Position numbers and translations under genes: made by a program. 61,839 bases of DNA from Verrucomicrobiia bacterium (lineage in GTDB: Bacteria; Verrucomicrobiota; Verrucomicrobiia; Limisphaerales; UBA8199). The notes under the pieces were generated by a model. It saw nothing but the letters and a program-made list of their open reading frames with translations, ran no database searches and was not told the origin of the DNA. Of this stretch, positions 2,713-50,137 are shown piece after piece. Position 1 is the stretch's first letter; every line of letters starts with the position of its first letter. Location: contig DASYZB010000154.1 in assembly GCA_035946615.1 (NCBI GenBank), positions 1 through 61,839 of the forward strand, read 5' to 3'.

Positions 2713-3510
2713 CTAAGCGTTCAGGGGCGCCGCCGCTACTGGGCCAGGCGTTGCCGGCGCAACGACCACTTCGATACCTCGCGCGCGCAGACCGTCGATG
2801 AGGTCCATCGGGGCCCGCGCATCCGTCACGATCGTGTTCACAGAATCCAAATCACATAATGGCAGCACCGATTTGCGGCCAAACTTCGTATGATCAAAAC
2901 AAAAAATCACTTTTTGCGCCGCCTGTATCATCGCCCGCTGAATCTCGATGAGCAGGCCGTGCGAATTGGTAATGCCGTCGAGCGATACACCGCCCGCGCT
3001 CATGATCGCCACGTCGGCGTGCATCCGCAAAAAGGCATCTACCGCCAGCGGCCCCACCAAAACGCCGAGCCGGGGGTAAATAACCCCGCCGGAAACAATC
3101 ACCTCCAGACGGTTCGCTGACGCAAAATGGTTCGCCACTGGAAGCGAATTGGTAATTATCTGCGGCGCCTTGGCCTCCAGATAACGTGCGGTGTGATAAA
3201 CCGTTGTTCCTGCGTCTATGATGATGCTCTGGTTGGGCTGGATCAGCTCCGCACACGCGCGCCCAATCGTCTCTTTCTCGGCCAAATGATGCGTATCCCG
3301 CGCAGTAAACAGGAATTCATCCGACCGGGGAGCTACCAAACGGGCACCTCCGTGCGTTCGGCGTAATGACCCTGACGTTTCCAAGGACGAAAGGTCCCGG
3401 CGAACTGTGGAAATGGACGCATGAACCTGGTCTGCAATCTCTTCTAAGGACGCAAACTCAACCTTTTGCAGGTATTCCGCAATTCGCTCTTTGCGCTGTT
3501 CTGACTGCAT
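2713..3510 (-). CDS. DeoR-family transcriptional regulator of the microcompartment operon
   Basis: A 265-residue DeoR/GlpR-type repressor. The N-terminal winged helix-turn-helix covers about residues 5-58 (E-R-I-A-E-Y-L, then S-I-S-T-V-R-R-D-L). The DeoRC sensor domain follows, with D-A-G-T-T near residue 99 and I-T-N-S near 120, the usual sugar-phosphate binding loop. It is transcribed divergently from the microcompartment operon with 82 bp between start codons. That arrangement is typical of a regulator acting on its neighbour in response to a phosphorylated sugar; the effector (for example fuculose- or rhamnulose-1-phosphate) is inferred from the pathway. The C-terminal tail is Pro/Ala rich and probably not structured. 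Confidence 0.85.
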   Translation of the reverse strand: MQSEQRKERIAEYLQKVEFASLEEIADQVHASISTVRRDLSSLETSGSLRRTHGGARLVAPRSDEFLFTARDTHHLAEKETIGRACAELIQPNQSIIIDAGTTVYHTARYLEAKAPQIITNSLPVANHFASANRLEVIVSGGVIYPRLGVLVGPLAVDAFLRMHADVAIMSAGGVSLDGITNSHGLLIEIQRAMIQAAQKVIFCFDHTKFGRKSVLPLCDLDSVNTIVTDARAPMDLIDGLRARGIEVVVAPATPGPVAAAPLNA

Positions 3511-3592: not shown

Positions 3593-4276
3593 ATGGTCGC
3601 TTCTGCACCATCTACTTTGCACAGGGCCGTGGTTGAGCACATGGTCCGTCAGGCCGTGTATCAGCGGCTAGGCAAGCCGTTGCCTTCACGGGCGGCAGCA
3701 CCCAATCCGTTGGTCGTGAATGTCAGCGCGCGCCATTGCCATCTCACTCCGGAGGCTGTCGAGGTTCTTTTTGGAAAGGGCCACCAACTGACTCCGCACA
3801 AGTGGCTTTATCAGGACGGCCAATTTGCGGCGAAAGAAACGCTCACTTTGATAGGTCCACGCAGCCGGGTCATCTCCAACCTCCGCATCCTGGGGCCGTG
3901 CCGGAATTTCAACCAGGTTGAATTGGCATATACAGATGGCATCGCGTTGGGATTCGAGCTGCCGTTGCGCATTTCCGGCGACATCAAAGGGACGCTGGGC
4001 AGCATGCTGATGGGGCCGGCTGGATTTTTTGAGATGCAGGAGGGCGTTATCCGGGCGCTGCGTCATGTGCATATGTCGCCGGAAGACGCGAACTATTATG
4101 AGGTCAAACCCGGCGCTGAAATGCGGCTCAGAATTGGGGGCCCTTGCGGGTTAATTTTGGATAAGCTCCTGGTCCGCGTGGATAAGAGCTTCAAACTGGA
4201 AGTCCATATAGACACCGATGAAGGCAATGCCTGCAACCTGCAGCCTGAAACCCCCTGTGAACTGATGGAAGCATAA
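3593..4276 (+). CDS. pduL: Microcompartment phosphotransacylase, PduL type
   Basis: The 227-residue enzyme exchanges CoA and phosphate on an acyl group (lactyl-, propionyl- or acetyl-CoA to the acyl phosphate) inside the compartment, regenerating CoA. The two PduL repeats are visible with metal-binding histidines at about H48/H50 (S-A-R-H-C-H-L-T) and H158/H160 (R-H-V-H-M-S). Residues about 8-27 form an amphipathic helix followed by a Pro/Ala linker, typical of an encapsulation peptide, which supports a lumen location. It is the first gene of the operon and is followed by two shell genes. The ATG at 3593 is chosen because a later ATG (3641) would cut the targeting helix. Confidence 0.9.
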   Translation: MVASAPSTLHRAVVEHMVRQAVYQRLGKPLPSRAAAPNPLVVNVSARHCHLTPEAVEVLFGKGHQLTPHKWLYQDGQFAAKETLTLIGPRSRVISNLRILGPCRNFNQVELAYTDGIALGFELPLRISGDIKGTLGSMLMGPAGFFEMQEGVIRALRHVHMSPEDANYYEVKPGAEMRLRIGGPCGLILDKLLVRVDKSFKLEVHIDTDEGNACNLQPETPCELMEA

Positions 4277-4334: not shown

Positions 4335-4628
4335 ATGAGCGAAGCATTAGGCATGATAGAAACCAAAGGCTACGTCGGCAGCGTCGAGGCCAGTGACGCG
4401 ATGGTCAAGGCCGCCAACGTGAATCTGATCAAAACCATACCAATCGGCGGCGGCTTAATCACCGTGCTGTGCCGGGGTGATGTGGGTAGCGTCAAAGCTG
4501 CCGTCGATGCAGGGTCCAAAGCGGCAGCGAAAGTCGGCGAACTGGCGAGCTCGCATATCCTGGCGCGGCCACACGAGGATTTGCTGAGGTCTTTCCTGGG
4601 CGAAGCCGCCAACGCGAAGCCCAAATGA
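4335..4628 (+). CDS. BMC-H shell protein (first copy)
   Basis: A 97-residue single-domain BMC (Pfam BMC) protein. Such proteins form hexamers that tile the flat facets of the shell. The fold signature is clear: M-I-E-T-K-G-Y at the start, D-A-M-V-K-A-A-N-V, and [13 protein letters not shown]. The pore loop at residues 37-41 reads I-G-G-G-L, giving a glycine-lined, probably wide and uncharged pore. The tail after S-H-I-L-A-R-P-H is short. It is 58 bp after pduL and 43 bp before a second BMC-H gene. Confidence 0.93.
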
Positions 4629-4671: not shown

Positions 4672-4950
4672 ATGAGTCAACAAGCAATCGGAATGATCGA
4701 ATGCAAAGGCTTATGCCCTTTGCTGGAGGCCTGCGATGCCGCTCTCAAATCCGCCAACGTCACCCTCGTGGGCTGGGAGAAAATCGGCAGCGGGTACGTC
4801 ACCGGCTTTTTCCGGGGGGATGTCGCTGCCGTGAAAGCCGCAACCGACGCGGGCGCGGCTGCAGCGGCGCAAGTCGGCCAGGTCATCAGCGTGCAGGTCA
4901 TCCCGCGCCCGCATGAAGGGCTATCCGTCCTGGGCCGGTGGCTGCAATAG
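4672..4950 (+). CDS. BMC-H shell protein (second copy)
   Basis: A 92-residue BMC-H paralogue of the preceding gene, again a hexamer-forming facet protein. It carries M-I-E-C-K-G-L, an E-K-I-G-S-G-Y pore segment (IGSGY at residues 38-42, the common canonical form) and [14 protein letters not shown]. Three cysteines in the first 21 residues (C11, C15, C21) distinguish it from the other two copies. A 96-bp gap to the acetate kinase gene shows no promoter or terminator that I could recognise. Confidence 0.93.
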
Positions 4951-5046: not shown

Positions 5047-6330
5047 ATGAAAATACTTGTCGCCAATTTGGGCTCGACCTCGTTGAAGTGGCGGCTGTTC
5101 GATTTCACAAGCGGCCAGGAACAGCTTCTGCACAAAGGCGGCTTCGAACGGGTAGCCGATCACGCCAAGGCAATCGGCGATTGCCTCGTCCAACTAAAGG
5201 ACGCCGACGCCATCCAGAGCGACACCGACCTTGCGGCCGTGGGTTTTAAAACGATAATGGCTCGAGGCGTCAACGGCTGTGTGCGACTCGATGAAAGAGT
5301 CCTCAAGGCGATGGAGGCCTTCAACGGAATCGCTCCCGCGCATAATCCGCCCTACATAACAGGAATCCGGCTGTTCGCGCAGAGAATGCCGTCTGTGCCG
5401 CTGGTGGGGTTGTTTGAAACCGCCTTTTATCAGTGGATGCCGCCCGCGGCAGTTCGCTATGCGGTCCCGGAAGAATGGCACAACCTGGGCGTTCGGCGCT
5501 GGGGCTTTCACGGGGCCAGTCATAAGTATATTGCCGAACGCTCCGCCGAACTGCTGGGCCGCGAGGATGTCGCCAAACGGGTGCGACAATTGTATGTCAA
5601 TGTCGCCGCAACGCCTGTGAGCCAGCCTGACCTGCGTATCATCTCTTGTCATTTGGGCGGCAGCTCGTCCATAACCGGCATCCTCAATGGCCTGGCCATT
5701 GGAACCAGTATGGGCCTGAGCCCCCAATCCGGTTTGCCGCAGAATAACCGGGTCGGTGACCTGGATTCATTCGCGCTGCCATTCCTGATGCGCACCGCCG
5801 GGCTGACGCTCGACGACGCCGAAACCATTCTCTGCCAGAATTCGGGCCTCAAAGCCCTCTCGGGCGGTCTGAATGATATACGTGACATCCTACAGGCCGC
5901 AGCGGGAGGCAATGCCCGCGCTCAACTGGCCCTGGAAGTGTTCGTACAGCAGACCCGCCACTGGATTGGCTCATTCCTGGCACAACTAAACGGCGCGGAT
6001 GCCCTGGTCTTCACGGCGGGCATCGGCGAGAACCGGGCCGAGCTTCGCAAATCGATTTGCTCAAATCTCGATCAGTTGGGGGTCCTGCTGGATGAGGAAA
6101 AAAATGATTCGACACGGGCAAAGGAAGCGCTGATTAGCACCCCGGATTCACCGGTGAAGGTCCTGGTCATCCCCACCAACGAGGAACTGGTTGTGGCGCG
6201 CGAAGTGAAGCGCTTTTTGGAAAAAATGCAGGCCGAGCAGCAGCGGAACGCCGCCCAGCCCAGGCGGCCTCGCGATTATACTGACAAGTTCAAAATCACC
6301 ACTCTCAAAACAAAACTAACAAAGCATTAA
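5047..6330 (+). CDS. ackA: Acetate (acyl) kinase
   Basis: A 427-residue kinase of the acetate/propionate kinase family that turns the acyl phosphate made by PduL into the free acid and ATP. Motifs are N-L-G-S-T-S-L-K-W at the start (phosphate loop), H-L-G-G-S-S-S-I-T, N-R-V-G-D-L-D, and F-T-A-G-I-G-E-N. It sits between BMC-H genes, 3 bp before the third one, so it belongs to the operon. The last 30 residues or so (after F-L-E-K-M) form a basic tail rich in Arg and Lys that goes beyond the usual kinase end. The tail has no clear amphipathic helix, so whether the enzyme is packaged is open. In the inferred pathway the substrate would be lactyl phosphate. Confidence 0.9.
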   Translation: MKILVANLGSTSLKWRLFDFTSGQEQLLHKGGFERVADHAKAIGDCLVQLKDADAIQSDTDLAAVGFKTIMARGVNGCVRLDERVLKAMEAFNGIAPAHNPPYITGIRLFAQRMPSVPLVGLFETAFYQWMPPAAVRYAVPEEWHNLGVRRWGFHGASHKYIAERSAELLGREDVAKRVRQLYVNVAATPVSQPDLRIISCHLGGSSSITGILNGLAIGTSMGLSPQSGLPQNNRVGDLDSFALPFLMRTAGLTLDDAETILCQNSGLKALSGGLNDIRDILQAAAGGNARAQLALEVFVQQTRHWIGSFLAQLNGADALVFTAGIGENRAELRKSICSNLDQLGVLLDEEKNDSTRAKEALISTPDSPVKVLVIPTNEELVVAREVKRFLEKMQAEQQRNAAQPRRPRDYTDKFKITTLKTKLTKH

Positions 6331-6333
6331 CTT

Positions 6334-6630
6334 ATGGCACATCAAGCAATAGGACTTATTGAAACCCGCGGGTTGGTGGCCCTGGTGGAAGGCACCGACG
6401 CAATGCTCAAGGCGGCAAACGTCGAGTTGGCGGGGCCCATGACACAAGTCGGCAACGCCCTGGTCACCGCCGTCGTTGTGGGCGACGTGGCCGCTGTCAA
6501 AGCGGCCACTGATGCCGGCGCCCAGGCCATCAAGGCCATCAAAGGCGAGCTGGTCAGCGTCCACGTCATCGCCCGGCCTCACGCGGATGTGGAAGCCGTG
6601 CTGCCCAAAAAGCCGGTAGCCAAGCAATAA
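6334..6630 (+). CDS. BMC-H shell protein (third copy)
   Basis: A 98-residue BMC-H protein, third hexameric shell paralogue in the locus. It has L-I-E-T-R-G-L, D-A-M-L-K-A-A-N-V and [14 protein letters not shown]. The pore loop is V-G-N-A-L (residues 39-43), so Asn and Ala replace the usual Gly/Ser-Gly, which should change pore size and chemistry relative to the other two. It starts 3 bp after the kinase stop codon, indicating translational coupling. Confidence 0.93.
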   Translation: MAHQAIGLIETRGLVALVEGTDAMLKAANVELAGPMTQVGNALVTAVVVGDVAAVKAATDAGAQAIKAIKGELVSVHVIARPHADVEAVLPKKPVAKQ

Positions 6631-6646
6631 TCCACCAACCTGACCT

Positions 6647-6958
6647 ATGTTTCTGGCCCGGGTTGAAGGCGCGGTGGTCGCCACAAAAAAGGACCCCTCC
6701 ATGAGCGGACGCAAGTTGCTCCTGGTCCGGCCCCAATTGGTCGATGAAAAAGACCCAACTCAGTTTCGTCCCGGTATGAATACCATCGTGGCGGTGGATA
6801 CACTGGGGGCGGGGATTGGGGAGTTGGTGATGTTTTGCCAGGGCAGCTCTGCCCGCCTGGCGTCAAGCCTGAAGGATGCCCCCGTCGATGCGGTCATTAT
6901 CGGCATTGTCGATACCGTCGATGTCCTGGGAAAGCAAATCTATAACGCAAAGACATGA
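6647..6958 (+). CDS. BMC-P vertex shell protein, EutN/CcmL family (first copy)
   Basis: A 103-residue EutN/CcmL-type protein. These form pentamers that cap the vertices of the shell. It begins M-F-L-A-R-V-E-G-A-V-V-A-T and contains V-A-V-D-T-L-G-A-G-I-G-E and C-Q-G-S-S-A-R, the conserved beta-barrel core, ending in the helical V-D-T-V-D-V. Its stop overlaps the start of the aldehyde dehydrogenase gene by 4 bp. Confidence 0.92.
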   Translation: MFLARVEGAVVATKKDPSMSGRKLLLVRPQLVDEKDPTQFRPGMNTIVAVDTLGAGIGELVMFCQGSSARLASSLKDAPVDAVIIGIVDTVDVLGKQIYNAKT

Positions 6959-8451
6959 GCGCCGTGAACGAAGCTTTGATTCGGGATGTGGTAGCCGAAG
7001 TGCTGGGGCGCCTGGGCCAGGCCCCCGGCAAAAATGGAACCTCTGCTCCCGTCCCACCCAGCGAGCCTTGCGGTTGCTCTCATCCTGCGCAACCCAGCGC
7101 CGCCAGTTCGGGCGGGGGCCGGCATGGGGTATTTCAAAATGCAGAAGCCGCCTGCGCCGCCGCTCAGCAGGCCTTTGTGCAGTTGAAACAAAAGGGGGTC
7201 GCTGCCCGGGCGAAAGTTGTTGAAATAGTCAAAACACTGGCGGAGTCCAATGCCGTCGAGTGGGGAAAACTTGAATTGGATGAGACGAAAATCGGGCGGC
7301 TGGATCACAAGATCGAAAAGCTGAAGATTATCAAATTAGTGCCTGGCGTCGAGTGGCTGCACCCGGACGGACGCAGCGGCGATCACGGCATCACGCTGGA
7401 AGAATACACGCCCTTCGGCGTGGTGGCGGCCATTACGCCCTCGACTCATTCGGTCCCCACTTTGAGCGGCAATATCGTCAATATTGTTGCTGCGGGTAAT
7501 AGCGTCGTGTTCAACCCTCACCCATCCGCAGCCCGATGCGCCGCCGTCGCAGTCGCTGAATTCAACAAGGCTTTCGAACGCGAGGTCGGCATCGAGAATT
7601 TGGTCACAATAATCGAGCATCCCACCATCGAATCGTTCAAAGCTATCTGCAGTCACGACGCCGTCCGGCTTCTCTGTGTGACCGGCGGGCCGGGGGTGGT
7701 CAAGGCCGCGATGCAAACCGGCAAACGCGCCATCTGCGCCGGGCCAGGCAACCCGCCTGTCGTGGTCGATGACACCGCTTGCATGAAACGCGCCGCCAAG
7801 TCGATTATCGCCGGCGCCGCCTATGATAACAACCTGCTCTGCATCGGGGAGAAGGAGGTCTTTGTGCTGGGTAGCGTGGCGGACGAGTTGATGGAGGAAA
7901 TGGAAAAAGCGGGCGCCGTTCGGCTTAACGCCGGCCAGGTCGAACGCCTCACAAAGGAAGCGTTCGCTTTTAAGGAAGGCCAGGGCGCAGGGTGCCCTGA
8001 ACCGATGGTCAACAAAGCCCTCATCGGCAAAGATGCCCGAGTGCTGGCCAAAGCCGCCGGCGCAACCGTGCCAGATAAAAGCGAGCTGTTGTTTGGCGAA
8101 ACGGACAGGGACCACCTCTTTGTCAGAGAGGAACAGATGATGCCCTTCATCCCGATTGTGCGGGTCAGCTCAGTCGAAGAGGGAATCCAGGCGGCTGTGG
8201 CAGCCGAGCACAATTACAAACACACCTCGATCATTCACTCACACAATGTGGAACACATGACCGCGATGGCCCGGGCTCTGGACACGACTCTGTTTATCAA
8301 AAACGGCCCGTGCATGGCGGGCCTCGGCCTCGGCGGTGAGGGCTATCTGAGTTATTCCATCGCGACACCGACTGGCGAAGGAGTGACCAACCCAAAGACC
8401 TTTTGCCGGGTGCGCCGCTGTGTGATGGTCGATAACCTGCGCATTTACTGA
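6955..8451 (+). CDS. CoA-acylating aldehyde dehydrogenase (PduP/EutE-like), encapsulated
   Basis: A 498-residue NAD-dependent enzyme that oxidises an aldehyde (lactaldehyde in the inferred pathway) to its CoA thioester. The catalytic cysteine is C296 in N-N-L-L-C-I-G-E-K-E-V-F. The T-G-G-P-G-V-V-K and C-A-G-P-G-N-P-P segments are typical of the family. Residues about 4-21 (E-A-L-I-R-D-V-V-A-E-V-L) form an amphipathic helix, followed by a Gly/Pro/Ser-rich linker (about 22-60): an N-terminal encapsulation peptide like those of PduP and EutE. It is flanked directly by shell genes. Lactaldehyde specificity is inferred from the operon, not seen in the sequence. Confidence 0.92.
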   Translation: MSAVNEALIRDVVAEVLGRLGQAPGKNGTSAPVPPSEPCGCSHPAQPSAASSGGGRHGVFQNAEAACAAAQQAFVQLKQKGVAARAKVVEIVKTLAESNAVEWGKLELDETKIGRLDHKIEKLKIIKLVPGVEWLHPDGRSGDHGITLEEYTPFGVVAAITPSTHSVPTLSGNIVNIVAAGNSVVFNPHPSAARCAAVAVAEFNKAFEREVGIENLVTIIEHPTIESFKAICSHDAVRLLCVTGGPGVVKAAMQTGKRAICAGPGNPPVVVDDTACMKRAAKSIIAGAAYDNNLLCIGEKEVFVLGSVADELMEEMEKAGAVRLNAGQVERLTKEAFAFKEGQGAGCPEPMVNKALIGKDARVLAKAAGATVPDKSELLFGETDRDHLFVREEQMMPFIPIVRVSSVEEGIQAAVAAEHNYKHTSIIHSHNVEHMTAMARALDTTLFIKNGPCMAGLGLGGEGYLSYSIATPTGEGVTNPKTFCRVRRCVMVDNLRIY

Positions 8452-8453
8452 GT

Positions 8454-8723
8454 ATGGTCCTCGCTCGCGTTGAAGGCAATGTTGTGGCCACCCGCAAGCA
8501 TCCCGGCTTCGAAGGGTGGCGGCTGGTGATTTGTCAGCCCATCAACCAGGCAGGGGTTGCCGAGGGCGCGCCGCAGGTCTCTATCGACCCCCACGGCGCC
8601 GGGCTGCACCAGCGTGTGATTATTTCCTCCGATGGCGCAGCCGCCCGCGTCCTGGTTGGCGACGACAAAAGCCCCGCCCGCTGGTCGGTCATTGCCATCG
8701 TCGATGAGCAGCAACCCGGATGA
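8454..8723 (+). CDS. BMC-P vertex shell protein, EutN/CcmL family (second copy)
   Basis: An 89-residue EutN/CcmL pentamer protein, the shortest of three. It begins M-V-L-A-R-V-E-G-N-V-V-A-T-R-K and continues with a C-Q-P-I-N-Q segment and S-S-D-G-A-A-A-R, then ends soon after the core barrel (S-V-I-A-I-V-D). It starts 2 bp after the aldehyde dehydrogenase stop codon. Three BMC-P genes with no BMC-T gene is the shell composition expected of PVM-type compartments. Confidence 0.92.
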   Translation: MVLARVEGNVVATRKHPGFEGWRLVICQPINQAGVAEGAPQVSIDPHGAGLHQRVIISSDGAAARVLVGDDKSPARWSVIAIVDEQQPG

Positions 8724-8729
8724 AGTTCG

Positions 8730-9035
8730 ATGAGACTTGGCAACGTCATTGGCCGCGTAACACTGAGCGCCACCCTCCCCTCTCTCACCGGAGCCCGCTG
8801 GTTGGTCGTCTCTCCATTTGCTCGCGAGCAATTCTCGAAGGGCTTGGCCACATCCGCCACCCTCAGCAAAGAACCCAGCCTGATTGTCTATGATAACCTG
8901 GGCGGCGGAGTCGGCCAGCCAATCGGCTTTGAGGAAGGCCGTGAAGCGGCTTGCCCATTTGATGGCCCCACGCCCATTGATGCAATCAACGTCGCCTTAA
9001 TCGACGAGCTCTTTTACAAACCACTCAACCCATGA
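8730..9035 (+). CDS. BMC-P vertex shell protein, EutN/CcmL family (third copy)
   Basis: A 101-residue EutN/CcmL protein and the most divergent of the three: M-R-L-G-N-V-I-G-R-V replaces the L-A-R-V-E-G opening of its paralogues. The barrel core includes W-L-V-V-S-P and Y-D-N-L-G-G-G-V-G-Q. The C terminus is extended by about 20 residues (P-T-P-I-D-A-I-N-V-A-L-I). It lies 6 bp after the previous BMC-P gene and overlaps the aldolase start by 4 bp. Confidence 0.9.
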   Translation: MRLGNVIGRVTLSATLPSLTGARWLVVSPFAREQFSKGLATSATLSKEPSLIVYDNLGGGVGQPIGFEEGREAACPFDGPTPIDAINVALIDELFYKPLNP

Positions 9036-10102
9036 AGCAGGTTTTCAGTGTCCGTGATTTGGAAGAGATGCTGCGCGCCGGCAAAGATGTCCATGCGCTG
9101 CCGCAGGATGCATTGTTGACGCCCTCAGCGCGTGACTTCCTGCTGGACCTTGCCAAGGACAACGGGGGTTTTGACGCAAGAAAGCCTGAGACGGCCACGC
9201 CGCGCAATCCAGTCATCGCTCCTTCCTCGAAAAGCTCAAAAGCCGAGATCGAGGCCTTCTTCAAGTCTCCGCAAATTAACGACCTGAAGCTCCAGATTTG
9301 CGATATTGGCCGCCGCCTCTGGCAGCGTGCGTACGTGGATGGCAATGGCGGTAACATCGCGATCCGAGTAAGCGATGACATCGCGCTTTGCACCCCCACG
9401 CTGGTCTCCAAAGGTTTCATGAAACCGGAAGACATGTGCTTGGTGGACCTCGAAGGCAACCAACTCTGTGGTGAGAAAAAGCGCACGAGCGAAATTCTCA
9501 TGCACCTGCAAATAATGAAGCGGCAGCCGCGCGCGGTAGCCACGGTTCATTGCCACCCGCCCTATAGCACCGGCTTTGCGGTGGCGGGTATTCAACCGCC
9601 CACCTGCATGATTCCGGAATTCGAGGTGTTCGCCTCGGTGGCCATTGCCCCGTATCGCACGCCCGGCACACCGGAGATGGGCAAGCTGGTTGCCGACCTT
9701 GTCGATAAACATAACACCATCCTCATGGCCAACCACGGGGTGGTCACCTGGAGCCACAACAACCTCGAGGACGCCTACTTTAAAATGGAGATTCTCGAGG
9801 CCTACTGCCGCACAGTCGTTGTTGCCTCCCAATTAGGGAAACCCGTCAACACCATGACTCCTGCCCAATTGCAGGACCTGCTTAAAATCAAACAAAGCCT
9901 CGGCATACCCGACCCACGGTTTGGCCTGAAAGAATGCGAACTGTGCGACAACGAGGGCTGGCGTCCCGGCGTGACCTGCGCACTGCAGGCCCACAACGGC
10001 GGGCAAGACACTGCGGTCACGCCGCCTGACCCTGCCGCCGAGGCCCTTATCCAAACCATTACCGATCAGATCATGTCCGGCCTCACGCCCGGTCACAAGT
10101 AA
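9032..10102 (+). CDS. Class II sugar-phosphate aldolase (fuculose/rhamnulose-1-phosphate type) with two extra terminal segments
   Basis: A 356-residue protein. The central domain (about 75-280) is a class II aldolase/adducin fold that would cleave fuculose- or rhamnulose-1-phosphate into dihydroxyacetone phosphate and lactaldehyde. Zn ligands and catalytic acid appear as E154 (T-S-E-I-L-M), H173/H175 (V-H-C-H-P-P) and H235 (A-N-H-G-V-V). Residues 1-45 are extra and read F-S-V-R-D-L-E-E followed by L-T-P-S-A-R-D, like the N-termini of EutQ/EutT-type microcompartment proteins. Residues about 325-356 form a Pro-rich linker plus an amphipathic helix (A-A-E-A-L-I-Q-T-I-T), an encapsulation-peptide pattern. 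The first reaction of the pathway would therefore occur in the lumen. A C-x2-C pair (K-E-C-E-L-C, about 302-305) could hold an extra metal. Confidence 0.88.
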   Translation: MKQVFSVRDLEEMLRAGKDVHALPQDALLTPSARDFLLDLAKDNGGFDARKPETATPRNPVIAPSSKSSKAEIEAFFKSPQINDLKLQICDIGRRLWQRAYVDGNGGNIAIRVSDDIALCTPTLVSKGFMKPEDMCLVDLEGNQLCGEKKRTSEILMHLQIMKRQPRAVATVHCHPPYSTGFAVAGIQPPTCMIPEFEVFASVAIAPYRTPGTPEMGKLVADLVDKHNTILMANHGVVTWSHNNLEDAYFKMEILEAYCRTVVVASQLGKPVNTMTPAQLQDLLKIKQSLGIPDPRFGLKECELCDNEGWRPGVTCALQAHNGGQDTAVTPPDPAAEALIQTITDQIMSGLTPGHK

Positions 10103-10115
10103 CCGCGAATTTTTT

Positions 10116-11042
10116 ATGAAAATCACCATTATCGGCGGCGGAGGCCGGGTTGGCTCGTGCGCAGCCTATGCCCTGCAGTGCGAAGGACTGATGGCCGAGC
10201 TGCAAATTCTTGACGCCAATAAAGACCTCATGGAAGGCGAGGCCCTTGATTTGCTTCATGGCTCGGCATTTGCCGGCGATCAAAAAATCTACCCCGGCGA
10301 TTACGCGCGCGCTGCGGATAGTGACTTGTTCCTGATCACCGCTGGCCTGCGCCGTAAACCGGATGAATCGCGGCTGGACCTCATCAACCGCAATGTAACC
10401 CTTTTCCTGCAGATTCTCGACAGCATCAAATCCGCAGGGATGCGGCCCGATGCCCACGTCCTGGTTGTGTCAAACCCAGTGGATATCCTTACCCACTTGG
10501 CTGTACGAAAGCTGGGGTTGCCTTGGCAGCAGGTCTATGGCCTGGGCACCATGCTCGATACCTGCCGCTTCAGCTCGTTTATCGCCGACGAACTCAAGCT
10601 GGCTCCTACCCAGGTCAAAGCCCTCATCCTGGGCGAGCACGGCGATTCCATGGTGCCCATTTGGTCCAGCGCAACCGTCAATGGCTTGCCCTTGTCCGGC
10701 TTGCCCGAGTGCACCCCCGGCTTTCAGAATGCCGTCTTCGAGCGGACCAAAGGCAGCGGGGCGGAGGTGATTAAGAAAAAGGGGGGCGCCGGTTGGGCGG
10801 TCGGAGTTGCCATTCGCGAAGTGGTTCACACGGTCCTATTGAACAAAAAATCCCTTCTTCCGGTTTCAAGCCTGGCGCAAGGGGTGTATGGGATTGATAA
10901 GATTTGCTTGAGCTTGCCCTCTGTGTTGGGCCGCAAGGGCATTGAACGACAGGTCGAACTCAAGCTGTGGCCCAAGGAACAAATGGCATTGCAGCAATCC
11001 GCCCGCGCCTTGAAAGAGACGCTCGCAAAGGCCGGCGCCTGA
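10116..11042 (+). CDS. NAD-dependent lactate/malate dehydrogenase family protein
   Basis: A 308-residue 2-hydroxyacid dehydrogenase. The Rossmann loop is at residues 7-13 (G-G-G-G-R-V-G) and an Asp at 33 (I-L-D-A-N) favours NAD over NADP. The catalytic His is H175 in G-E-H-G-D-S-M. The specificity loop reads T-A-G-L-R-R-K-P-D-E-S-R: R80 sits where malate dehydrogenases have Arg and lactate dehydrogenases Gln, while the surrounding E-S-R-L-D-L looks lactate dehydrogenase-like. In the compartment it probably recycles NAD for the aldehyde dehydrogenase or acts on lactate. No clear targeting helix is present. It lies 13 bp after the aldolase. Confidence 0.85.
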   Translation: MKITIIGGGGRVGSCAAYALQCEGLMAELQILDANKDLMEGEALDLLHGSAFAGDQKIYPGDYARAADSDLFLITAGLRRKPDESRLDLINRNVTLFLQILDSIKSAGMRPDAHVLVVSNPVDILTHLAVRKLGLPWQQVYGLGTMLDTCRFSSFIADELKLAPTQVKALILGEHGDSMVPIWSSATVNGLPLSGLPECTPGFQNAVFERTKGSGAEVIKKKGGAGWAVGVAIREVVHTVLLNKKSLLPVSSLAQGVYGIDKICLSLPSVLGRKGIERQVELKLWPKEQMALQQSARALKETLAKAGA

Positions 11043-11061: not shown

Positions 11062-12360
11062 ATGAAATCCCTCGATGCCAAATTGGCGCAAATAAGAGCC
11101 AACCCGGCAACGACGGCCTTCATCATCGCCGATGCCAAAGATGCCGACATGGCATTCGGAACCCGGGCTCCGGGCCCGCGCGCTTATCTCTCCAAACGCG
11201 GAGAGCGGCCAGCGCGCTTCTCGCCGGAAATCTGGAGCCGAGCGGATTACGGCTACCGAAACCTGCCGGAGTTTTTGGACATCATCCGTGAGGTGGTTCA
11301 CCAGGGGGTGATCGACATCCTGCTCATGTCGGCATACGTCAACGAGCAACTCACAATCAAGGAAGGTCTCTTTCGCAGTTCCCATGTCACTCCCGCCGCC
11401 CGCGCCAACGACGCCACCGATGTCTGGGCTGTGCGCCACGGCTGCTATACCGCTGAACCGGCGCAACCTTTTCGCACCGCCACCATTGATCACATTCAAT
11501 GCGGCAAAATCGAGTGCGACCGTTCCGCCGAGAGTTTTCCAGGCGCCAATCTCGGTCTCTACTCGGTCACGTTCGTCAACAACCTCGAACAAGACCGGGA
11601 AACCCTCCTTGCTTTCAAAGAATTCCGCGAAGAAGCCGAGCGGAAAAACTTCCGTTATTTCCTGGAAGTCTTTGACCCGAATATCGCCAGTGGGATTCCT
11701 GCGGAAAAACTGGGCGAGTTCATTAATGACAATATCCTGCGCAGCCTGGCCGGCGTGCCGGAGTCCGGGCGGCCACTGTTTCTGAAGATTGTCTATCACG
11801 GCCCGCGGGCGATGGAGGAGTTGGCCCAGTACGACCCCAATCTCATTGTCGGCATTCTGGGCGGAAGCGCCGGCACGACTTACGACGCCTTTAAGCTAAT
11901 TCATGAGGCGCAGAAATACGGGGCGCGGGTCGCCCTGTTTGGGCGCAAGATCAACAATGCCGAACATCAACTGGCTTTTATCGAGATGCTGCGCCTGATC
12001 ACCGACGGCAAACTTTCTCCTGAAGAGGCGGTGCGGGCTTATCACGGCGTGTTGGAAGCCAAAAACATCAAACCCAAGTTGCCGCTGGAACAGGACCTCG
12101 AATTGACCGATGCGGCCATGAGTTATCGCGCCAATCGAAACGCCCGAACCCTCGTCAGCCTTTCTACGAACCGCTTACCGGCCGCGGCATCGAATACGAC
12201 AGAGCGCAGCAACCTGCGCGCGACCGGCGCGGCCAATCGAGCCAAAATGGCCGACAACTCCTGGCCAAAAAAAACCGACGGCTCTCCCGACTTCGATAAA
12301 ATGGATACGCACCAGCGCCGCGCTTACGATCACCACCGTTTAACCCGCAAATTTGGCTGA
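11062..12360 (+). CDS. Conserved microcompartment-associated protein of unknown function, aldolase-like barrel
   Basis: A 432-residue protein, last gene of the operon, 19 bp after the dehydrogenase. I do not recognise a characterised family. Alternating hydrophobic strands ([40 protein letters not shown]) look like a TIM barrel of the DeoC/LacD/class I aldolase kind, with K242 in F-L-K-I-V-Y-H a candidate Schiff-base lysine. Residues about 355-405 are a low-complexity Asn/Arg/Ala linker. The last 30 or so (S-P-D-F-D-K-M-D onward) form a charged helix that could be a targeting or docking tail. The operon position implies a role in the sugar pathway; the reaction is unknown. Confidence 0.75.
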
Positions 12361-42674: not shown

Positions 42675-43152
42675 AAATCACTCTATTCCCCTGGGGGCTA
42701 AATTAACAGCAACTGACCGTGCACTTCCCACTCGACTGAGCGACGGCTTCAATTGACCTCTGGCCAGGAAATACCCCGGAAACGGACGCGAGAGCATAGC
42801 AGCGAAGGACTTCGTGTCAAGCAGGCCGAAAAATGCGGCTGGCTTTTAGGATTCAATCAGAACAGCAAAATGCAAAGCGACTGCCGCGCTGGCGTCCAGA
42901 GTGAGGCTCACTTGCGGCCTGCCTGAATGAGGCGGGAAATCGTGAGCTTCGACTGCCCTTTTCGATTCAATCGGACATTAACGACCCGCCGCCTCCATTG
43001 CTCGGTCAATCGGCGAGAGTCGCGCTCGGCCGGAACCACGTGCCAATCCTTTTCTGTTGCTCGTCCAAAAACCTCCCGCTAACGTGCGACGCGTGTTTTC
43101 CGCAGCTTCTTCGCGCGCTCCGCAAGCGGCAACGGCGGCTGGCCAGGTCTCT
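42675..43152. other. 478-base divergent intergenic region
   Basis: This lies between the starts of rpmH and the FKP gene and must hold both promoters. No dnaA gene, DnaA-box cluster or AT-rich origin-like stretch is seen, although rpmH often neighbours dnaA/oriC. A GATTCAATC sequence occurs twice (about 42849 and 42964); its meaning is unknown. The FKP frame extends upstream to 43057 but that part is not conserved-looking. Confidence 0.5.
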
Positions 43153-46038
43153 ATGGAATACCTCCTGACGCTGCCGCCGCAAATGGCCGAGCAGTTTGGA
43201 GAGTTAGAAGGCAAATCACAGCCGCAATGGGTAGCGGCTTGTGACCCTGTTGGGCGCCCGCTCGGTTCGGGTGGCGGGACGGCCCATCTGTTGGTTGAGG
43301 CCTGGCGGCGAAATGCCTCCGGTAAACCGTTTGGTTCCTGGCTGCTGCACGGCCAGAAGCTGATCATTCACGCCGGCGGCCAGAGCAGGCGCTTGCCGGC
43401 CTACGCGCCCGCAGGCAAGTTGCTCATGCCCGTACCCGTTTTCCGCTGGGCGCGCGGCCAGCGGCTGGACCAAACGCTGCTGGACCTGCAATTGCCCTAT
43501 TACGAGCGGGTCCTGGCCCACGCGCCGGAAGCCGCCGCGCTGATCACCAGCGGCGATGTGCTCCTTCGATTTGCTCCCACGCTTCCGCCTTTCCCAAAAG
43601 TCGATGTGCTGGGGTTGGGGATGTGGCTGGAACCCGAGAAGGCGCAGGATTTCGGCGTCTTCTTCTCGACGCGCAACCAGCCCGGCCAATTGGAATTCTT
43701 CCTTCAAAAACCATCGGCTGCACGAATCCGGGAGTTAGCCGAGGAGTACCTCACACTGGTGGACACCGGGATGTGGCTCTTGAGCGAGCGGGCAATTCGT
43801 GTGCTGATGGAGCGGTGCGGATGGGACGAGCGACGCCAGGAGTTCGCAGGCGCAGCCACTGCGCCCTATGAACTTTATGCGCAATTTGGGCTGGCATTGG
43901 GCAAGTCCCCTGTGGCGCCTGACCCAGCCGTCAATGCCCTCACCTGCGCGGTCGTGCCTTTACCCGAAGCCCAATTCTTTCACTTTGGCACAAGCGCGCA
44001 AATGATCGAATCGGTATCGAGCTTGCAAAACCTTGTGCTGGACCAGACCAAATTGGGGATGGCAGGCGCGCGCCGGCATCCGGACCAGGTGACCCAGAAT
44101 TCGCAGGTCGATGTGCCGCTGCGTCGCGAAGGCAATCACACCCTTTGGATTGAAAACAGTGTCGTGCCGTCTTCCTGGCGGCTGGCATCCGAGCATGTCA
44201 TCACCGGGGTCCCGGAGAACGATTGGAGCCTGGAGCTCCCGCCCGGGGTGTGTCTGGATTTCGTGCCGGTAGGGACGGACGATTTTTGCGTCCGGGCCTA
44301 TAGTTTCAAAGACAGATTTGCCGGGAGATTTGGCGGAGAGGAAACCCGCTGGCTCGGGCGGCGGCCACAACACTGGCTCACCGCGCGCGGCCTCAAACCG
44401 GAGGACTGCGGAATTGATTTGGGAGATGATATCCAGGCATGCCAACTCTTTCCGGTTCTCTCGAAGGAGCAACTTCAAGGCTCCTTCATCGAATGGCTTT
44501 TCACCTCGGAACCGGCGCCCAATGAGAAACTGAGCGCACTGTGGCGCAGCCTGCCACGTTTTTCAGCTCAAGAGCTTTGCCAACGGGTCAATCTGCCTCG
44601 GCTTTATGCCCAGCGAGGACGCTTACGCAACGGCTGCCTGCTCCCGATGCTCAAGAACTTCCGTTCGAGCGTTTTTTTTAGACTGGACCTTGAAGGCACC
44701 GCTCGCGCCTTTGCGGCTACGGGAAACGAAGTGCCCACTTTATCCTTGGACGGCCATGCCGACCCGATGCAACCGGTCCACGGCCGAATGTTTCGCTCGG
44801 CTGTTTTGAGGCATCGGCAGGCTCCCTCCTGGCAGGAGTTCGAGCAGTCGGCTTTTGCGAAACTGCGGGAGTTGCTCATCCACGAGGCCCAACTCTCGCC
44901 TACGACGCCGCGCTGCGCCATTAAAGAGGATCAGATTGTCTGGGCTCGCAGTCCTGTCCGCTTCGACCTGGCGGGAGGCTGGACCGACACACCGCCTTAC
45001 TGCATCGAGTATGGCGGCAAGGTGCTAAACCTTGCCGTGAACCTAAACGGGCAGCCGCCAGTCCAGGTCTTTGCCAGGGTTTGCCAGCGGCAAGAGATCG
45101 TCCTCCATTCCATTGATTTGGGCGCCGAAGAACGTGTGCGGACATACGCGGAGCTGGACACTTTTGGCACACCGCAGAACCCGTTTGCTTTGCCCAAAGC
45201 AGCGCTGGCGCTGGCGGGATTTCTGCCTCGGTTCAACGCCTCAGCGCGTTTCTCGAGTCTGGAGAAGCAGCTTGAGGGTTTTGGCGGGGGGATCGAGTTG
45301 TCCTTGCTCTCGGCGATTCCGAAAGGGTCGGGGCTGGGCACCAGCAGCGTTCTGGCGGCAACCGTGCTCGCAGCCCTGAGCGATCTGTGCGGGTTGGGGT
45401 GGGACCGACACGTCCTGTTTACGCGCACCTTGGCGCTGGAACAGATGCTCACCACCGGTGGCGGTTGGCAGGACCAGGCCGGGGCGCTGTTCCGCGGGAT
45501 TAAGTTGATTGAGACCGCGCCGGGCCTGGCCCAGCAACCGACCTTGCGCTGGCTCCCGGACCACTTGTTCGGCCACGAGTACGCCAACCGCTCCATCCTT
45601 CTCTATTACACTGGCCTGACACGCCTCGCCCGCAATGTTCTGGGGGAAATTGTTCGTGGGCTTTTTCTAAATTCACCGGCGCACCTGGAGATCATCCAGG
45701 AAATTGGGCAGAACGCGGAATTTGCCGGGGCCGCCATTCAAAAGTGCAATTACGCGATGCTCGTGGATGCGGTGCGCCGGAGTTGGGCGCTCAATCAACG
45801 GCTTGACCCAGGCACAAACCCGCCGCCGGTGCGGGAAATCCTGGGCAGGGTCCAGGATGAGGTCGCCGCAGCCAAATTGTTGGGGGCGGGCGGGGGAGGC
45901 TACCTGCTGTTGTTTGCCGAGGACGAAACCGCCGCTGCGCGGATCAAACAGAAGCTGATCCGGCACCCGCCAAATGCGCGCGCCCGCTTTGTCGATTTTG
46001 CAGTCTCGGAAACCGGACTCGAACTGACACGAAGCTGA
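43153..46038 (+). CDS. fkp: Bifunctional L-fucokinase/GDP-L-fucose pyrophosphorylase (FKP)
   Basis: A 961-residue fusion close to the 949 residues of Bacteroides FKP. The N-terminal pyrophosphorylase half has D-P-V-G-R-P-L-G-S-G-G-G-T-A (about residues 30-43). The C-terminal GHMP kinase half has R-S-P-V-R-F-D-L-A-G-G-W-T-D-T-P and the ATP loop P-K-G-S-G-L-G-T-S-S. It converts L-fucose to fucose-1-phosphate and GDP-fucose, the donor for fucosylated surface glycans. The start at 43153 is chosen because M-E-Y-L-L-T-L-P-P aligns with the Bacteroides start; the frame opens earlier with TTG at 43057. Confidence 0.93.
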   Translation: MEYLLTLPPQMAEQFGELEGKSQPQWVAACDPVGRPLGSGGGTAHLLVEAWRRNASGKPFGSWLLHGQKLIIHAGGQSRRLPAYAPAGKLLMPVPVFRWARGQRLDQTLLDLQLPYYERVLAHAPEAAALITSGDVLLRFAPTLPPFPKVDVLGLGMWLEPEKAQDFGVFFSTRNQPGQLEFFLQKPSAARIRELAEEYLTLVDTGMWLLSERAIRVLMERCGWDERRQEFAGAATAPYELYAQFGLALGKSPVAPDPAVNALTCAVVPLPEAQFFHFGTSAQMIESVSSLQNLVLDQTKLGMAGARRHPDQVTQNSQVDVPLRREGNHTLWIENSVVPSSWRLASEHVITGVPENDWSLELPPGVCLDFVPVGTDDFCVRAYSFKDRFAGRFGGEETRWLGRRPQHWLTARGLKPEDCGIDLGDDIQACQLFPVLSKEQLQGSFIEWLFTSEPAPNEKLSALWRSLPRFSAQELCQRVNLPRLYAQRGRLRNGCLLPMLKNFRSSVFFRLDLEGTARAFAATGNEVPTLSLDGHADPMQPVHGRMFRSAVLRHRQAPSWQEFEQSAFAKLRELLIHEAQLSPTTPRCAIKEDQIVWARSPVRFDLAGGWTDTPPYCIEYGGKVLNLAVNLNGQPPVQVFARVCQRQEIVLHSIDLGAEERVRTYAELDTFGTPQNPFALPKAALALAGFLPRFNASARFSSLEKQLEGFGGGIELSLLSAIPKGSGLGTSSVLAATVLAALSDLCGLGWDRHVLFTRTLALEQMLTTGGGWQDQAGALFRGIKLIETAPGLAQQPTLRWLPDHLFGHEYANRSILLYYTGLTRLARNVLGEIVRGLFLNSPAHLEIIQEIGQNAEFAGAAIQKCNYAMLVDAVRRSWALNQRLDPGTNPPPVREILGRVQDEVAAAKLLGAGGGGYLLLFAEDETAAARIKQKLIRHPPNARARFVDFAVSETGLELTRS

Positions 46039-46106
46039 GGGCCGGGACTTGGTGACTGAGATTGTAAAACTTGAAATTTCCGGGCTGATGGCAAAGGATG
46101 TGCGGG

Positions 46107-48749
46107 ATGAAACTCGACTTCCGGGCAAAAACCAAGGCCCTCTTCATACTCCATGCAACGGCGGCGGCCTTAGGCCTGATGCTGGCCGTAGCGCGAACCC
46201 CTGCGGCTCAAAGCGACTCCGCATTGCGTCCCCCCTCGGTGCCGCTTGTCGCCTGCGACCCTTATTTCAGCATCTGGTCGCCGGCGGATAAATTGACCGA
46301 TGCCGATACGGTTCATTGGACGGGCAAACCGAATCGGCTCACCAGCCTGGTGCGGATTGATGGGAAGGGATTTCGCATCCTGGGCAAGGAACCGGCCGCC
46401 GTTCCCCCGCTGCCTCAAACCGGACTGCAGGTGCTCCCCACACGCACCATCTACACTTTTGAGGGTCAAGGCGTGCAGTTGACCTGCACGTTCATGACCG
46501 CCGCACTGCCCGATGACCTCATGATTTACTCGAGGCCACTGGCTTATCTGAGCTGGGCGGCTTCGGCGACTGACGGGCACGAGCACCAGGTCCAGGTTTA
46601 TTTCGATGCGGCCCCGGAGATCGCCGTCAACGATCCAAAATCGCAGCAGGTCGTAACCGTGAAGCCACAGATCGAGGGTCTGGAGGTGCTGGGTGTCGGC
46701 TCCCTCGACCAGCCGGTGCTGGAGAAGAAGGGCGATAATTTGCGGATTGATTGGGGACATTTTTATGTGGCTGCGAAGGGCGCACCAATCAAATCAGAAT
46801 CGGGTGGCTCGGGACAGAGGGCCTGGATTTGGGCTGAGGCGCAGCCGGAAACCTGGGCCAATCAAGGGGCACTCCCTTTCCCGGCGTCCGCCGGTCAACA
46901 GGCAGGCTCTGGCGACGGTCCTCAACGCCTCGCATTTTATTTCAACCTGGGCAAAATTACCTCCGCCCCCGTTTCCCGCTGGCTGATGCTTGCCTACGAC
47001 GACGAGTATTCGATCCAGTATTTTAAACACAACCTCCGCCCTTACTGGCGCCGCAACGGTGATGACGCCGCCGCTCTCCTGAAGAAGGCCGCTGCAGAAT
47101 ACGAATCACTCAAAAGCCGATGCGAGAAGTTTGACGCGGACTTCATGGCTGGGCTCACAAAGGCCGGTGGTGAAAAATACGCGCGGCTTTGCGCGCTGGC
47201 TTATCGCCAATGCTACGCCGCAAACAAAGTCGTGGCCGATGCCAATGGCCAGCCGCTCATGTTTCCCAAGGAGAATTTCAGCAACGGCTGCATCGGGACA
47301 GTCGATGTCATTTATCCGATGTCGCCGCAGTTCCTTTTGTTCAGTCCGTCATTGGCCAAGGCGATGCTGGCGCCCATCCTGGACTACGCTGCCTCGCCGC
47401 GCTGGCGTTGGCCCTTTGCCCCGCATGATCTCGGCACCTATCCGTTGGCCAATGGACAGGTCTATGGCGGGGGCGAACGCACCGAGCGCGATCAGATGCC
47501 GGTCGAGGAGACTGGTAACATGCTGTTGATGCTGGGTGGCCTGGCCCAAGTCGAAGGCAACGCCGATTTCTGCTCGAAGTACTGGCCGGTCCTCAAGAAA
47601 TGGGCCGATTACCTCAAAGCCAAAGGTTTTGATCCGGAGAACCAGCTTTGCACCGACGACTTTGCCGGCCATTTGGCCCACAACGTCAATCTCTCTGCCA
47701 AGGCCATCTGCGGCCTGGGGGCGTTCGCGAAGCTTTGCGCCATGCGCGGCGAGCAAGGCGAGGCTGGCGAGTTGATGAACCTGGCCAAGAGTTTTTCCGC
47801 GCGTTGGGTGAAGGAAGCCGATGATGGCGATCATTTCCGGCTCGCGTTCGATAAGCCCGGCACCTGGAGCCAGAAATATAATCTGGTTTGGGACCGCATC
47901 CTGGGCCTGAATCTCTTTGCCGATTCGGTCCGCCGCAAAGAAATGGACTTCTACAAAACCAAACAAAACGAGTTCGGCCTGCCGCTCGATAATCGCAAAC
48001 AATATACGAAGCTCGACTGGACACTCTGGACGGCGACCCTGACCCAGGAGCGCCCTGATTTTGAAGCCCTGGTCGCGCCCATCTGGCGTTTTTTAAATGA
48101 AACCCCAAACCGCGTTCCAATGACCGATTGGTTTTGGACACAGAACGCCCGGCAAACCGGCTTTCAAGCACGCTCGGTCGTGGGCGGAGTTTTTCTTCAA
48201 ATGCTCTATGATACCGCTGGGTGGAAACAATGGGCCGAACGCGACAGGACCAAAGCGGCAAACTGGGCGCCGTTTCCGAAGCCGCCCAAGATCGTGGTGG
48301 TCATTCCCACGTCGGAAGAGCGGCCCATGGGCTGGCGCTACACGACTCAACCGCAGGCCGTGGGTTGGTTCCAACCCGACTTTGACGACTCGTCATGGAA
48401 AGAAGCCCCTGGGGGTTTTGGCACCGAGGGGACTCCCGGCGCCGTGGTGCGCACCGAGTGGAACACGGCGGACATCTGGCTGCGCCGCGAGTTTACGCTG
48501 CCAGCGGGCAAGTGGACTGACATCGAGTTGCGGGTGCATCACGATGAAGACGCCGAGATTTATTTGAATGGCGTGCAGGCCGCCAGGCTTCCAGGGTTTA
48601 TCACAGAATATGAAACCGTCCCGATGAAGCCCAAGGCCCAGAGGGCCCTCAAACCCGGCAAGAATGTGCTGGCCGTGCATTGCCATCAAACGACAGGCGG
48701 CCAGTATATCGATGCCGGCCTGGTCGAGGTGCAATCGAGCAATAACTGA
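46107..48749 (+). CDS. Secreted glutaminase A-like protein (DUF5127/DUF4965/DUF1793) with C-terminal galactose-binding-like domain
   Basis: An 880-residue exported protein (signal near residues 10-35, ending A-A-Q-S). The N-terminal beta-sandwich (R-P-P-S-V-P-L-V-A-C-D-P-Y-F-S-I-W) and the alpha/alpha barrel (Y-R-Q-C-Y-A-A-N-K, N-G-C-I-G-T-V-D-V-I-Y-P, H-D-L-G-T-Y-P, E-E-T-G-N-M-L) are typical of the family named after fungal glutaminase A and common in glycan-degrading bacteria. Residues about 730-880 add a beta-galactosidase-type sugar-binding fold (F-D-D-S-S-W-K-E-A, L-R-R-E-F, I-Y-L-N-G). The real substrate is uncertain; glycan cleavage is as likely as glutamine. An MFS transporter gene follows 20 bp later. 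Confidence 0.78.
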   Translation: MKLDFRAKTKALFILHATAAALGLMLAVARTPAAQSDSALRPPSVPLVACDPYFSIWSPADKLTDADTVHWTGKPNRLTSLVRIDGKGFRILGKEPAAVPPLPQTGLQVLPTRTIYTFEGQGVQLTCTFMTAALPDDLMIYSRPLAYLSWAASATDGHEHQVQVYFDAAPEIAVNDPKSQQVVTVKPQIEGLEVLGVGSLDQPVLEKKGDNLRIDWGHFYVAAKGAPIKSESGGSGQRAWIWAEAQPETWANQGALPFPASAGQQAGSGDGPQRLAFYFNLGKITSAPVSRWLMLAYDDEYSIQYFKHNLRPYWRRNGDDAAALLKKAAAEYESLKSRCEKFDADFMAGLTKAGGEKYARLCALAYRQCYAANKVVADANGQPLMFPKENFSNGCIGTVDVIYPMSPQFLLFSPSLAKAMLAPILDYAASPRWRWPFAPHDLGTYPLANGQVYGGGERTERDQMPVEETGNMLLMLGGLAQVEGNADFCSKYWPVLKKWADYLKAKGFDPENQLCTDDFAGHLAHNVNLSAKAICGLGAFAKLCAMRGEQGEAGELMNLAKSFSARWVKEADDGDHFRLAFDKPGTWSQKYNLVWDRILGLNLFADSVRRKEMDFYKTKQNEFGLPLDNRKQYTKLDWTLWTATLTQERPDFEALVAPIWRFLNETPNRVPMTDWFWTQNARQTGFQARSVVGGVFLQMLYDTAGWKQWAERDRTKAANWAPFPKPPKIVVVIPTSEERPMGWRYTTQPQAVGWFQPDFDDSSWKEAPGGFGTEGTPGAVVRTEWNTADIWLRREFTLPAGKWTDIELRVHHDEDAEIYLNGVQAARLPGFITEYETVPMKPKAQRALKPGKNVLAVHCHQTTGGQYIDAGLVEVQSSNN

Positions 48750-48769
48750 GACGCCACACCCGGCGTACC

Positions 48770-50101: not shown

Positions 50102-50137
50102 AAAAGGGCGCTTATCCCGCACGCTGCAGTCGCAATT

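Follow-up and report, generated by a model that had tools for sequence, protein, structure and literature searches.

Microcompartments of the PVM type, known from Planctomycetes and Verrucomicrobia, are thought of as machines for fucose and rhamnose with one source of aldehyde, and they are common in degraders of algal and plant polysaccharides. Their founding description is reportedly that of Erbilgin 2014. Besides shell proteins, the system comprises an aldehyde dehydrogenase (AldDH), a PduL-type phosphotransacylase, an acetate kinase family protein (AckA), a class II aldolase, a DeoR-family regulator and a lactate dehydrogenase (LDH)-type protein, the last of which is thought to recycle NAD+ in the organelle. 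Excerpts of the published accounts (PMC4207490 and others) mention a single aldolase and none of class I. In the microcompartments of the SPU type the aldehyde for AldDH is made by DeoC, according to excerpts of PMC4207490 and PMC8217296, so that a class I barrel aldolase in an organelle has a precedent.

Two further groups of enzymes come close to the protein treated here. LsrF and ADH synthase are class I aldolases of the DhnA group. LacD tagatose-1,6-bisphosphate aldolase, YihT and sulfohexulose-1-phosphate aldolase together represent what we take to be the PF01791 group. This grouping derives in part from excerpts of PMC12421959.

Here, we describe P0001, a protein encoded at the end of a PVM-type operon and belonging to a family that is widespread, unnamed and without annotation. 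On balance, we favor the reading that P0001 is a class I aldolase of this family, carried to the PVM shell by its tail and cleaving a ketose phosphate to dihydroxyacetone phosphate (DHAP) and an aldehyde. No published description of the protein was recognized in titles, abstract openings and passages (PMC4207490, PMC8217296, PMC8857213, PMC12421959, PMC8706344; Erbilgin 2014 not covered).

The PVM-Type Locus and the P0001 Gene

The window, that is, the whole stretch of verrucomicrobial DNA analyzed (61,839 nucleotides), contains a complete PVM-type microcompartment operon by Pfam, with genes for DeoR, PduL, three BMC-H, AckA, three BMC-P, AldDH, the class II aldolase and LDH:

2713..3510, minus strand: DeoR-family regulator (PF00455, PF08220)
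3593..4276, plus strand: PduL-type phosphotransacylase (PF06130)
4335..4628, plus strand: shell hexamer BMC-H (PF00936)
4672..4950, plus strand: shell hexamer BMC-H (PF00936)
5047..6330, plus strand: acetate kinase family, AckA (PF00871)
6334..6630, plus strand: shell hexamer BMC-H (PF00936)
6647..6958, plus strand: shell pentamer BMC-P (PF03319)
6955..8451, plus strand: aldehyde dehydrogenase, AldDH (PF00171, E 5e-27)
8454..8723, plus strand: shell pentamer BMC-P (PF03319)
8730..9035, plus strand: shell pentamer BMC-P (PF03319)
9032..10102, plus strand: class II aldolase, the known PVM signature enzyme (PF00596, E 3e-43)
10116..11042, plus strand: lactate/malate dehydrogenase family gene (PF00056, PF02866)
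11062..12360, plus strand: P0001, putative class I ketose-phosphate aldolase with a C-terminal tail, 432 aa (open reading frame; relatives)

These shell, AldDH, PduL, AckA, class II aldolase, DeoR and LDH-type genes are the same as in the described PVM microcompartment. Loci of the window's type differ from it in the LDH-type gene, which was seen in no more than 29 of the 80 named P0001 loci (contig ends not being excluded). The class II aldolase was nearby in 62 of them. The 80 named loci are the best 80 of at least 567 found and do not include distant relatives; many are cut by contig ends, and sampling by means of P0001 cannot reveal loci with LDH but no P0001.

P0001 starts with ATG 20 bases downstream of the end of the LDH/MDH-family gene and has 432 codons, the coordinates including the stop; a separate IF-1 gene comes next. 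Between 9000 and 13000 no promoter-like site was found by a scan that counts as weak evidence. The first-pass annotation had placed a 432-residue protein at the end of a microcompartment operon already equipped with a class II aldolase, and the open reading frame, the Pfam-confirmed genes upstream and the PF00596 match at 9032..10102 bear this out. The reading frame is real and conserved and not a chance occurrence, because a match at E<=0.001 was present in 34 of the 58 genomes searched around, and including, the window's own, and 29 other full or near-full copies with 68-80% identity are free of internal stops. The remaining four matching genomes hold pieces only. Some 31 kb downstream of the operon, the window carries a fucose-related block (43057-52483) with a fucokinase/GDP-fucose pyrophosphorylase-like protein, a GtaA-family protein, an MFS transporter and a GH95-type glycosidase.

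Fold and Proposed Active Site of the Barrel Core

The following features of the core are relevant here:

11062..12126, plus strand: putative catalytic barrel, residues 1-355 (AF2 models; Foldseek and VIA matches to class I aldolases)
11665..11667, plus strand: E202 codon, strand 5, invariant acid (42-sequence alignment; strand 198-204)
11785..11787, plus strand: K242 codon, strand 6, proposed Schiff-base lysine (invariance; strand 240-243; LsrF alignment)
11860..11865, plus strand: G267-G268 codons, after strand 7, phosphate-site candidate (invariant; opposite IAGG of LsrF)
11941..11946, plus strand: G294-R295 codons, after strand 8, phosphate-site candidate (invariant; opposite GR of LsrF)

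Two AF2 models with mean pLDDT values of 61.5 and 65.7 show the beta/alpha alternation of a barrel over residues 1-340, and both are mediocre, with residues 28-66 near pLDDT 30. When they were compared with the PDB by Foldseek, model 1 retrieved LsrF (2.4e-8), LacD (9.5e-8) and ADH synthase (4.7e-7), and model 2 retrieved LacD (4e-7), ADH synthase (6.5e-6) and LsrF (1.2e-5), at modest TM-scores of 0.3-0.4 by query and 0.4-0.6 by target. By VIA, the closest folds were sulfohexulose-1-phosphate aldolase (8tnf; Z 16.8 with 254 aligned residues at 4.0 A for model 1, 15.9 for model 2), LacD (16.6, 254 residues, 3.7 A; 15.7) and class I FBA (16.4; 15.3), values that are ties and therefore cannot name the subfamily. 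Thus, in models of moderate confidence, P0001 has both the barrel and the strand-6 lysine of class I aldolases. This is in line with the first-pass annotation, which had likened the barrel strands to a class I aldolase and had pointed to the lysine in the motif FLKIVY: the fold turned out not to be an unrelated one, and the lysine is K242. Together with E202, G267-G268 and G294-R295, it is invariant in 42 of 42 sequences (the window's and 41 others with 43-78% identity to it), and it is likewise invariant in 30 of 30 members of the order. We liken E202 to the strand-5 glutamate of class I aldolases.

At the level of sequence, the relationship is remote. In an hhalign comparison of the family profile with E. 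coli LsrF (P 6e-5, probability 65), K242 stands opposite residue 203, counted on the printed alignment, which is presumably the catalytic lysine (K203) of LsrF. P0001 shares with LsrF and ADH synthase the barrel, the strand-6 lysine, the two glycines after strand 7 and the Gly-Arg pair after strand 8; it differs from them in that the hhalign similarity is limited to residues about 189-332, identity in the structural matches is about 10-17%, the NCBIfam cut-offs for these enzymes are far from reached, and P0001 carries a linker, a tail and an insert (about 41-62, as compared with the tail-less members of its own family). All four NCBIfam matches are weak and concern class I aldolases or LsrF-type thiolase; those to the curated DhnA-type models fell short of the cut-offs (PRK07226, 16.4 of 241 bits; PRK08227, 13.6 of 297 bits). 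A profile search against the PDB gave LsrF at E 0.14, and phmmer with the single P0001 sequence gave only noise there. Pfam returned no match for P0001 alone and 12 chance-level families for the 42 members, the best at E 0.015. In the comparison with known aldolase families, of the kind proposed at the outset, LsrF was matched by hhalign; the DeoC/LacD profile PF01791 matched 0 of 42 family members at E<=1, and single YihT, FbaB and DeoC sequences gave nothing significant by hhalign. These results set P0001 apart from LacD and YihT and also from the DeoC of SPU organelles, which belongs to a different family; in the P0001 locus, moreover, a class II aldolase is already present. A class II (metal) aldolase barrel was rejected, as hhalign gave no significant match to GatY and the fold matches listed belong to class I enzymes or to DhnA-type relatives of these. 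Taken together, a class I (Schiff-base) aldolase with a TIM barrel is probably the best reading of residues 1-355.

The Linker and the Conserved Tail

Behind the barrel, two further segments complete the protein:

12127..12261, plus strand: variable linker, residues 356-400 (low pLDDT, variable sequence and length)
12262..12357, plus strand: conserved tail, residues 401-432, W-P-x4-G-x-P-D-F-x2-M-x4-R-x2-[YF]-x3-R-L (tail alignment; helix 416-431)

In both models the linker (about 356-400) has block pLDDT values of 26-45 and the terminal helix (416-431) values of 68-84, which corresponds to the low-complexity linker and charged terminal helix of the first-pass annotation. Ten of 32 tail positions are invariant over 20 chosen tails (19 and the window's). 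The pattern P-[DN]-F-x2-M-x4-R is present in 74 of the 75 proteins extracted from the 80 named loci, L066 having a diverged form; left out of the extraction were L037, L098 (contig end), L089, an in-locus copy that ends without a tail, L050 and L093. The match range extends to residue 427 or beyond in 77 of the 80, and in the alignment of order members the tail is present in 29 of 30 copies, the other one (L006) being cut at a contig end.

A tail profile applied to 40 genomes scored below 1e-10 on 21 P0001 copies and one remnant in genome G034. Its weak matches were a contig-cut copy (G001) and an unrelated 15-position match in G002 (E 0.003), and no other intact protein with the tail was found in these 40 genomes among up to 150 candidates scored per genome. 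A tail common to other cargo was rejected, since among the candidates scored in these 40 genomes the profile is strong only on P0001 copies and the remnant. The remnant (L180, G034:C69, 5428-5508) follows immediately on a sulfatase open reading frame close to the end of a contig. The PVM locus of this genome lacks P0001, and the remnant may be a recombination scar or an assembly join.

Arg and His abound in the tail, which is basic and hydrophilic (mean hydrophobicity -0.66, moment 0.46); chosen end stretches of the AldDH and the class II aldolase encoded in the locus have mean hydrophobicities of 0.16 and 0.31. Usual encapsulation peptides are not basic and hydrophilic in this way. Their layout, as given in excerpts of PMC8217296, is a linker and an amphipathic terminal helix of about 15-20 residues. 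A helix behind a linker is what P0001 has at 416-431 and 356-400, and judging from this layout and from its distribution, the tail may send P0001 to the organelle or its shell.

Distribution and Linkage to Shell Genes

In the window's order, P0001 and shell pentamer genes occur together in 32 genomes, P0001 alone in two, shell genes alone in seven and neither in 17 (Fisher 2e-7; Fisher tests take no account of shared ancestry). A shell gene is located on the P0001 contig at a distance of up to 6 kb in 29 of the 32 genomes with both. The two genomes with P0001 only are G039, which is 80% complete, and G041, where the gene is a fragment at a contig end. Four of the seven shell-only genomes were viewed: in G034, G053 and G054 the class II aldolase is present, but P0001 and LDH are both missing from its surroundings, and the shell locus of G002 is of another kind and lacks the class II aldolase.

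A different picture emerges for the phylum. Among 240 sampled genomes, 16 contain the family, the window's own genome counted, and all 18 proteins from 15 genomes outside the order end at about residue 355 without linker and tail. A search for shell pentamers in the same phylum group, of the same size, yielded 41 Verrucomicrobiota genomes: the family is missing from 28 of them, another 12 have tail-less relatives only, which are not linked to the shell genes (the nearest about 11.5 kb away, in G096), and one is the window's own. P0001 is therefore a lineage-specific addition and no general PVM part. The possibility, noted at first pass, that the gene is missing from most PVM loci thus applies to the phylum sample and not to the window's order, where 32 of 39 shell genomes carry it. 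Shell genes as such are present in 13 of the 16 family-bearing genomes versus 28 of the 224 others, relatedness being ignored.

A plasmid search added 47 records, mostly from Rhizobium, Shinella, Agrobacterium and Sinorhizobium, and the tail is absent in all 14 examined, hence in 32 of 32 relatives examined outside the clade (18 verrucomicrobial, 14 plasmid). Conservation of the tail, a check suggested at first pass, accordingly holds for relatives from the window's order, in which the linker varies, and does not extend to these 32. In a FastTree phylogeny, 52 tail-bearing proteins (38 chosen in-locus copies, 13 off-locus copies and the window's) form one clade with an SH-like support of 0.999 and a branch of 0.31; the 38 and 12 of the 13 came from the 75 extracted proteins. 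The off-locus copies fall in six separate places inside it, and three copies (L085, L099, L107) lie too near a contig end for their position relative to the locus to be sure; five of 13 are near a ketohexokinase or PfkB kinase and three of 13 near a D-lyxose/mannose isomerase. Because all 12 tested genomes with an apparently off-locus tailed copy carry shell genes, the tail goes with the organelle.

These data bear on a possible, if rather doubtful, alternative in which P0001 is a class I aldolase but its tail, instead of targeting it, mediates contacts within an oligomer or attachment to the neighboring class II aldolase or to some other cargo enzyme. The basic, Arg/His-rich composition, the low hydrophobicity and the fixed W-P...G-x-P-D-F...M motif do resemble a specific protein contact more than a generic amphipathic peptide, and the tail is kept in copies away from the locus; on the other hand, all 32 tail-less relatives do without it, and every one of the 12 off-locus-tailed genomes has shell genes. 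With targeting as the preferred reading, we infer that recruitment proceeded from the cytosol to the organelle: a kinase-associated cytosolic aldolase would have been recruited to the PVM microcompartment in the window's order and would have acquired the linker along with the conserved helical tail as its means of reaching the shell. If so, the tail is a defined candidate tag for cargo loading.

A role of P0001 as a replacement for LDH was rejected, since both occur together in 29 named loci. In many relatives, no counterpart of the LDH-type gene (10116-11042), the presumed NAD+ recycler, was seen close to the aldolase, contig ends not being excluded. Records titled Klebsiella, Akkermansia or Proteobacteria (L040, L048, L058) carry a PVM locus or gene of the window's order and are probably mislabeled.

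Neighborhoods of the Tail-Less Relatives

A sugar kinase lies within 6 kb of the gene in 13 of 18 verrucomicrobial and 12 of 14 plasmid loci, versus 0 of 27 in-locus P0001 controls. The count is partly circular in that the neighbor queries were drawn from some of the counted loci, and the control is imperfect in that half of its span is the organelle operon. The usual neighbors on plasmids, surveyed with one record lacking annotation, are sugar ABC importers, ROK, DeoR or sugar-binding regulators, PfkB or FGGY kinases and GlpD-like dehydrogenases; the Lichenicola relative is accompanied by DhaK-DhaL. In Verrucomicrobiota, PfkB kinases, kinases of the 'prokaryotic ketohexokinase' type (PF25270), D-lyxose/D-mannose isomerase and DeoR regulators were encountered, along with mannosidase-type GH38 and GH2 enzymes in single loci. 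A setting of this kind is usual for ketose-phosphate aldolases, which act where a sugar or polyol is converted to a ketose phosphate and then to DHAP and an aldehyde. The kinases near the tail-less relatives therefore suggest ketose-phosphate cleavage, and the combination of kinase and aldolase genes resembles YihV-YihT.

The tail clade differs from its tail-less relatives by the insert at about 41-62 and by C147 and C152, which are invariant in the clade and absent in the 18 aligned tail-less verrucomicrobial sequences; one of the comparison alignments took 58 of the 75 extracted named relatives for the clade. Because of these differences, its specificity may have shifted. Two loci (L138, L139) represent a cluster type that combines a tail-less relative, a class II FBA-family protein and a PfkB kinase; L139 additionally encodes a protein similar to sulfoquinovose isomerase, below the cut-off for that enzyme. 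A search of phages gave no match, and the only one among viral contigs is a fragment, namely a partial relative (L164, 50% identity over residues 1-214) on a contig of a viral collection (IMG/VR 3300048838_000939).

Proposed Role and Substrate

The preferred reading can be put as a sequence of steps. K242 on barrel strand 6 would form an imine with the ketose phosphate in a metal-free, Schiff-base mechanism, the glycines and the arginine after strands 7 and 8 would hold the phosphate, and P0001 would release DHAP and a short aldehyde, which would be passed on to the AldDH-PduL-AckA chain that the class II aldolase also feeds. Fold class and invariance of K242 are results of computation, from which we infer catalysis and DHAP as a product. 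Our best guess for the substrate is a ketose 1-phosphate.

The genes near the relatives do not narrow this further. Within the order, neither ketohexokinase (28 of 34 genomes with P0001 versus 16 of 24 without, p 0.22) nor D-lyxose isomerase (1 of 34 versus 3 of 24, p 0.30) tracks P0001, and the relatives' neighbor genes therefore do not fix its substrate. A pathway of ketohexokinase and lyxose/mannose isomerase as the source of the substrate was rejected: it fits some relatives, but neither gene tracks P0001 in the order. In the window's own genome, a single ketohexokinase-family gene exceeded the cut-off, and it is located outside the locus. The genome further encodes an L-rhamnose isomerase (E 5e-196) and gave two matches to fucose isomerase (C-terminal domain) that barely exceeded the cut-off; lyxose isomerase was not found in it.

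We tentatively raise a more specific version of our reading, which we would not call probable, namely that the organelle holds two aldolases, the class II enzyme for L-deoxyhexulose 1-phosphates and P0001 for D-ketose 1-phosphates of the fructose-, xylulose- or 6-deoxy-fructose-1-phosphate type, with the basic tail loading P0001 also when it is encoded off-locus. The motif W-P...P-D-F...M...R-L would then stand for a new, basic type of targeting tail, and the organelle would process glyceraldehyde or glycolaldehyde besides lactaldehyde.

It is unlikely that P0001 brings no new substrate and is a spare aldolase for L-fuculose or L-rhamnulose 1-phosphate, used for example under other metal or oxygen conditions: the shared operon and the L-rhamnose isomerase of the genome would suit such a role, but the class II aldolase, the signature enzyme according to excerpts of PMC4207490, stands beside P0001 in 62 of 80 named loci, and several relatives of the family sit with D-lyxose/mannose isomerases and ketohexokinases. 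Most unlikely is a transferase (thiolase or transaldol type) that works with K242 and releases no free aldehyde. LsrF and ADH synthase (MJ0400 group), neither of them a plain retro-aldolase, are the best of the weak sequence matches and would suit this reading, but the relatives' sugar kinases, isomerases and importers form a setting of ketose-phosphate cleavage, and the nearest VIA structures are true aldolases, although the tied Z values cannot separate these families.

Should P0001 indeed be a tail-targeted class I aldolase, PVM compartments would widen their diet by recruiting new front-end enzymes, and the organelle would handle sugars beyond fucose and rhamnose. It would also give the first clue to function for a family that in rhizobia and agrobacteria carries no annotation but 'hypothetical'; the plasmid genes under long matches are called hypothetical wherever they are annotated, one short match falling under another annotation. 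Such 'hypothetical proteins' of rhizobial, agrobacterial and Vibrio plasmids (L150-L163) lie in sugar or polyol catabolism clusters with a kinase, a GlpD-like dehydrogenase, an importer and a regulator, and they may be the missing aldolases of these clusters.
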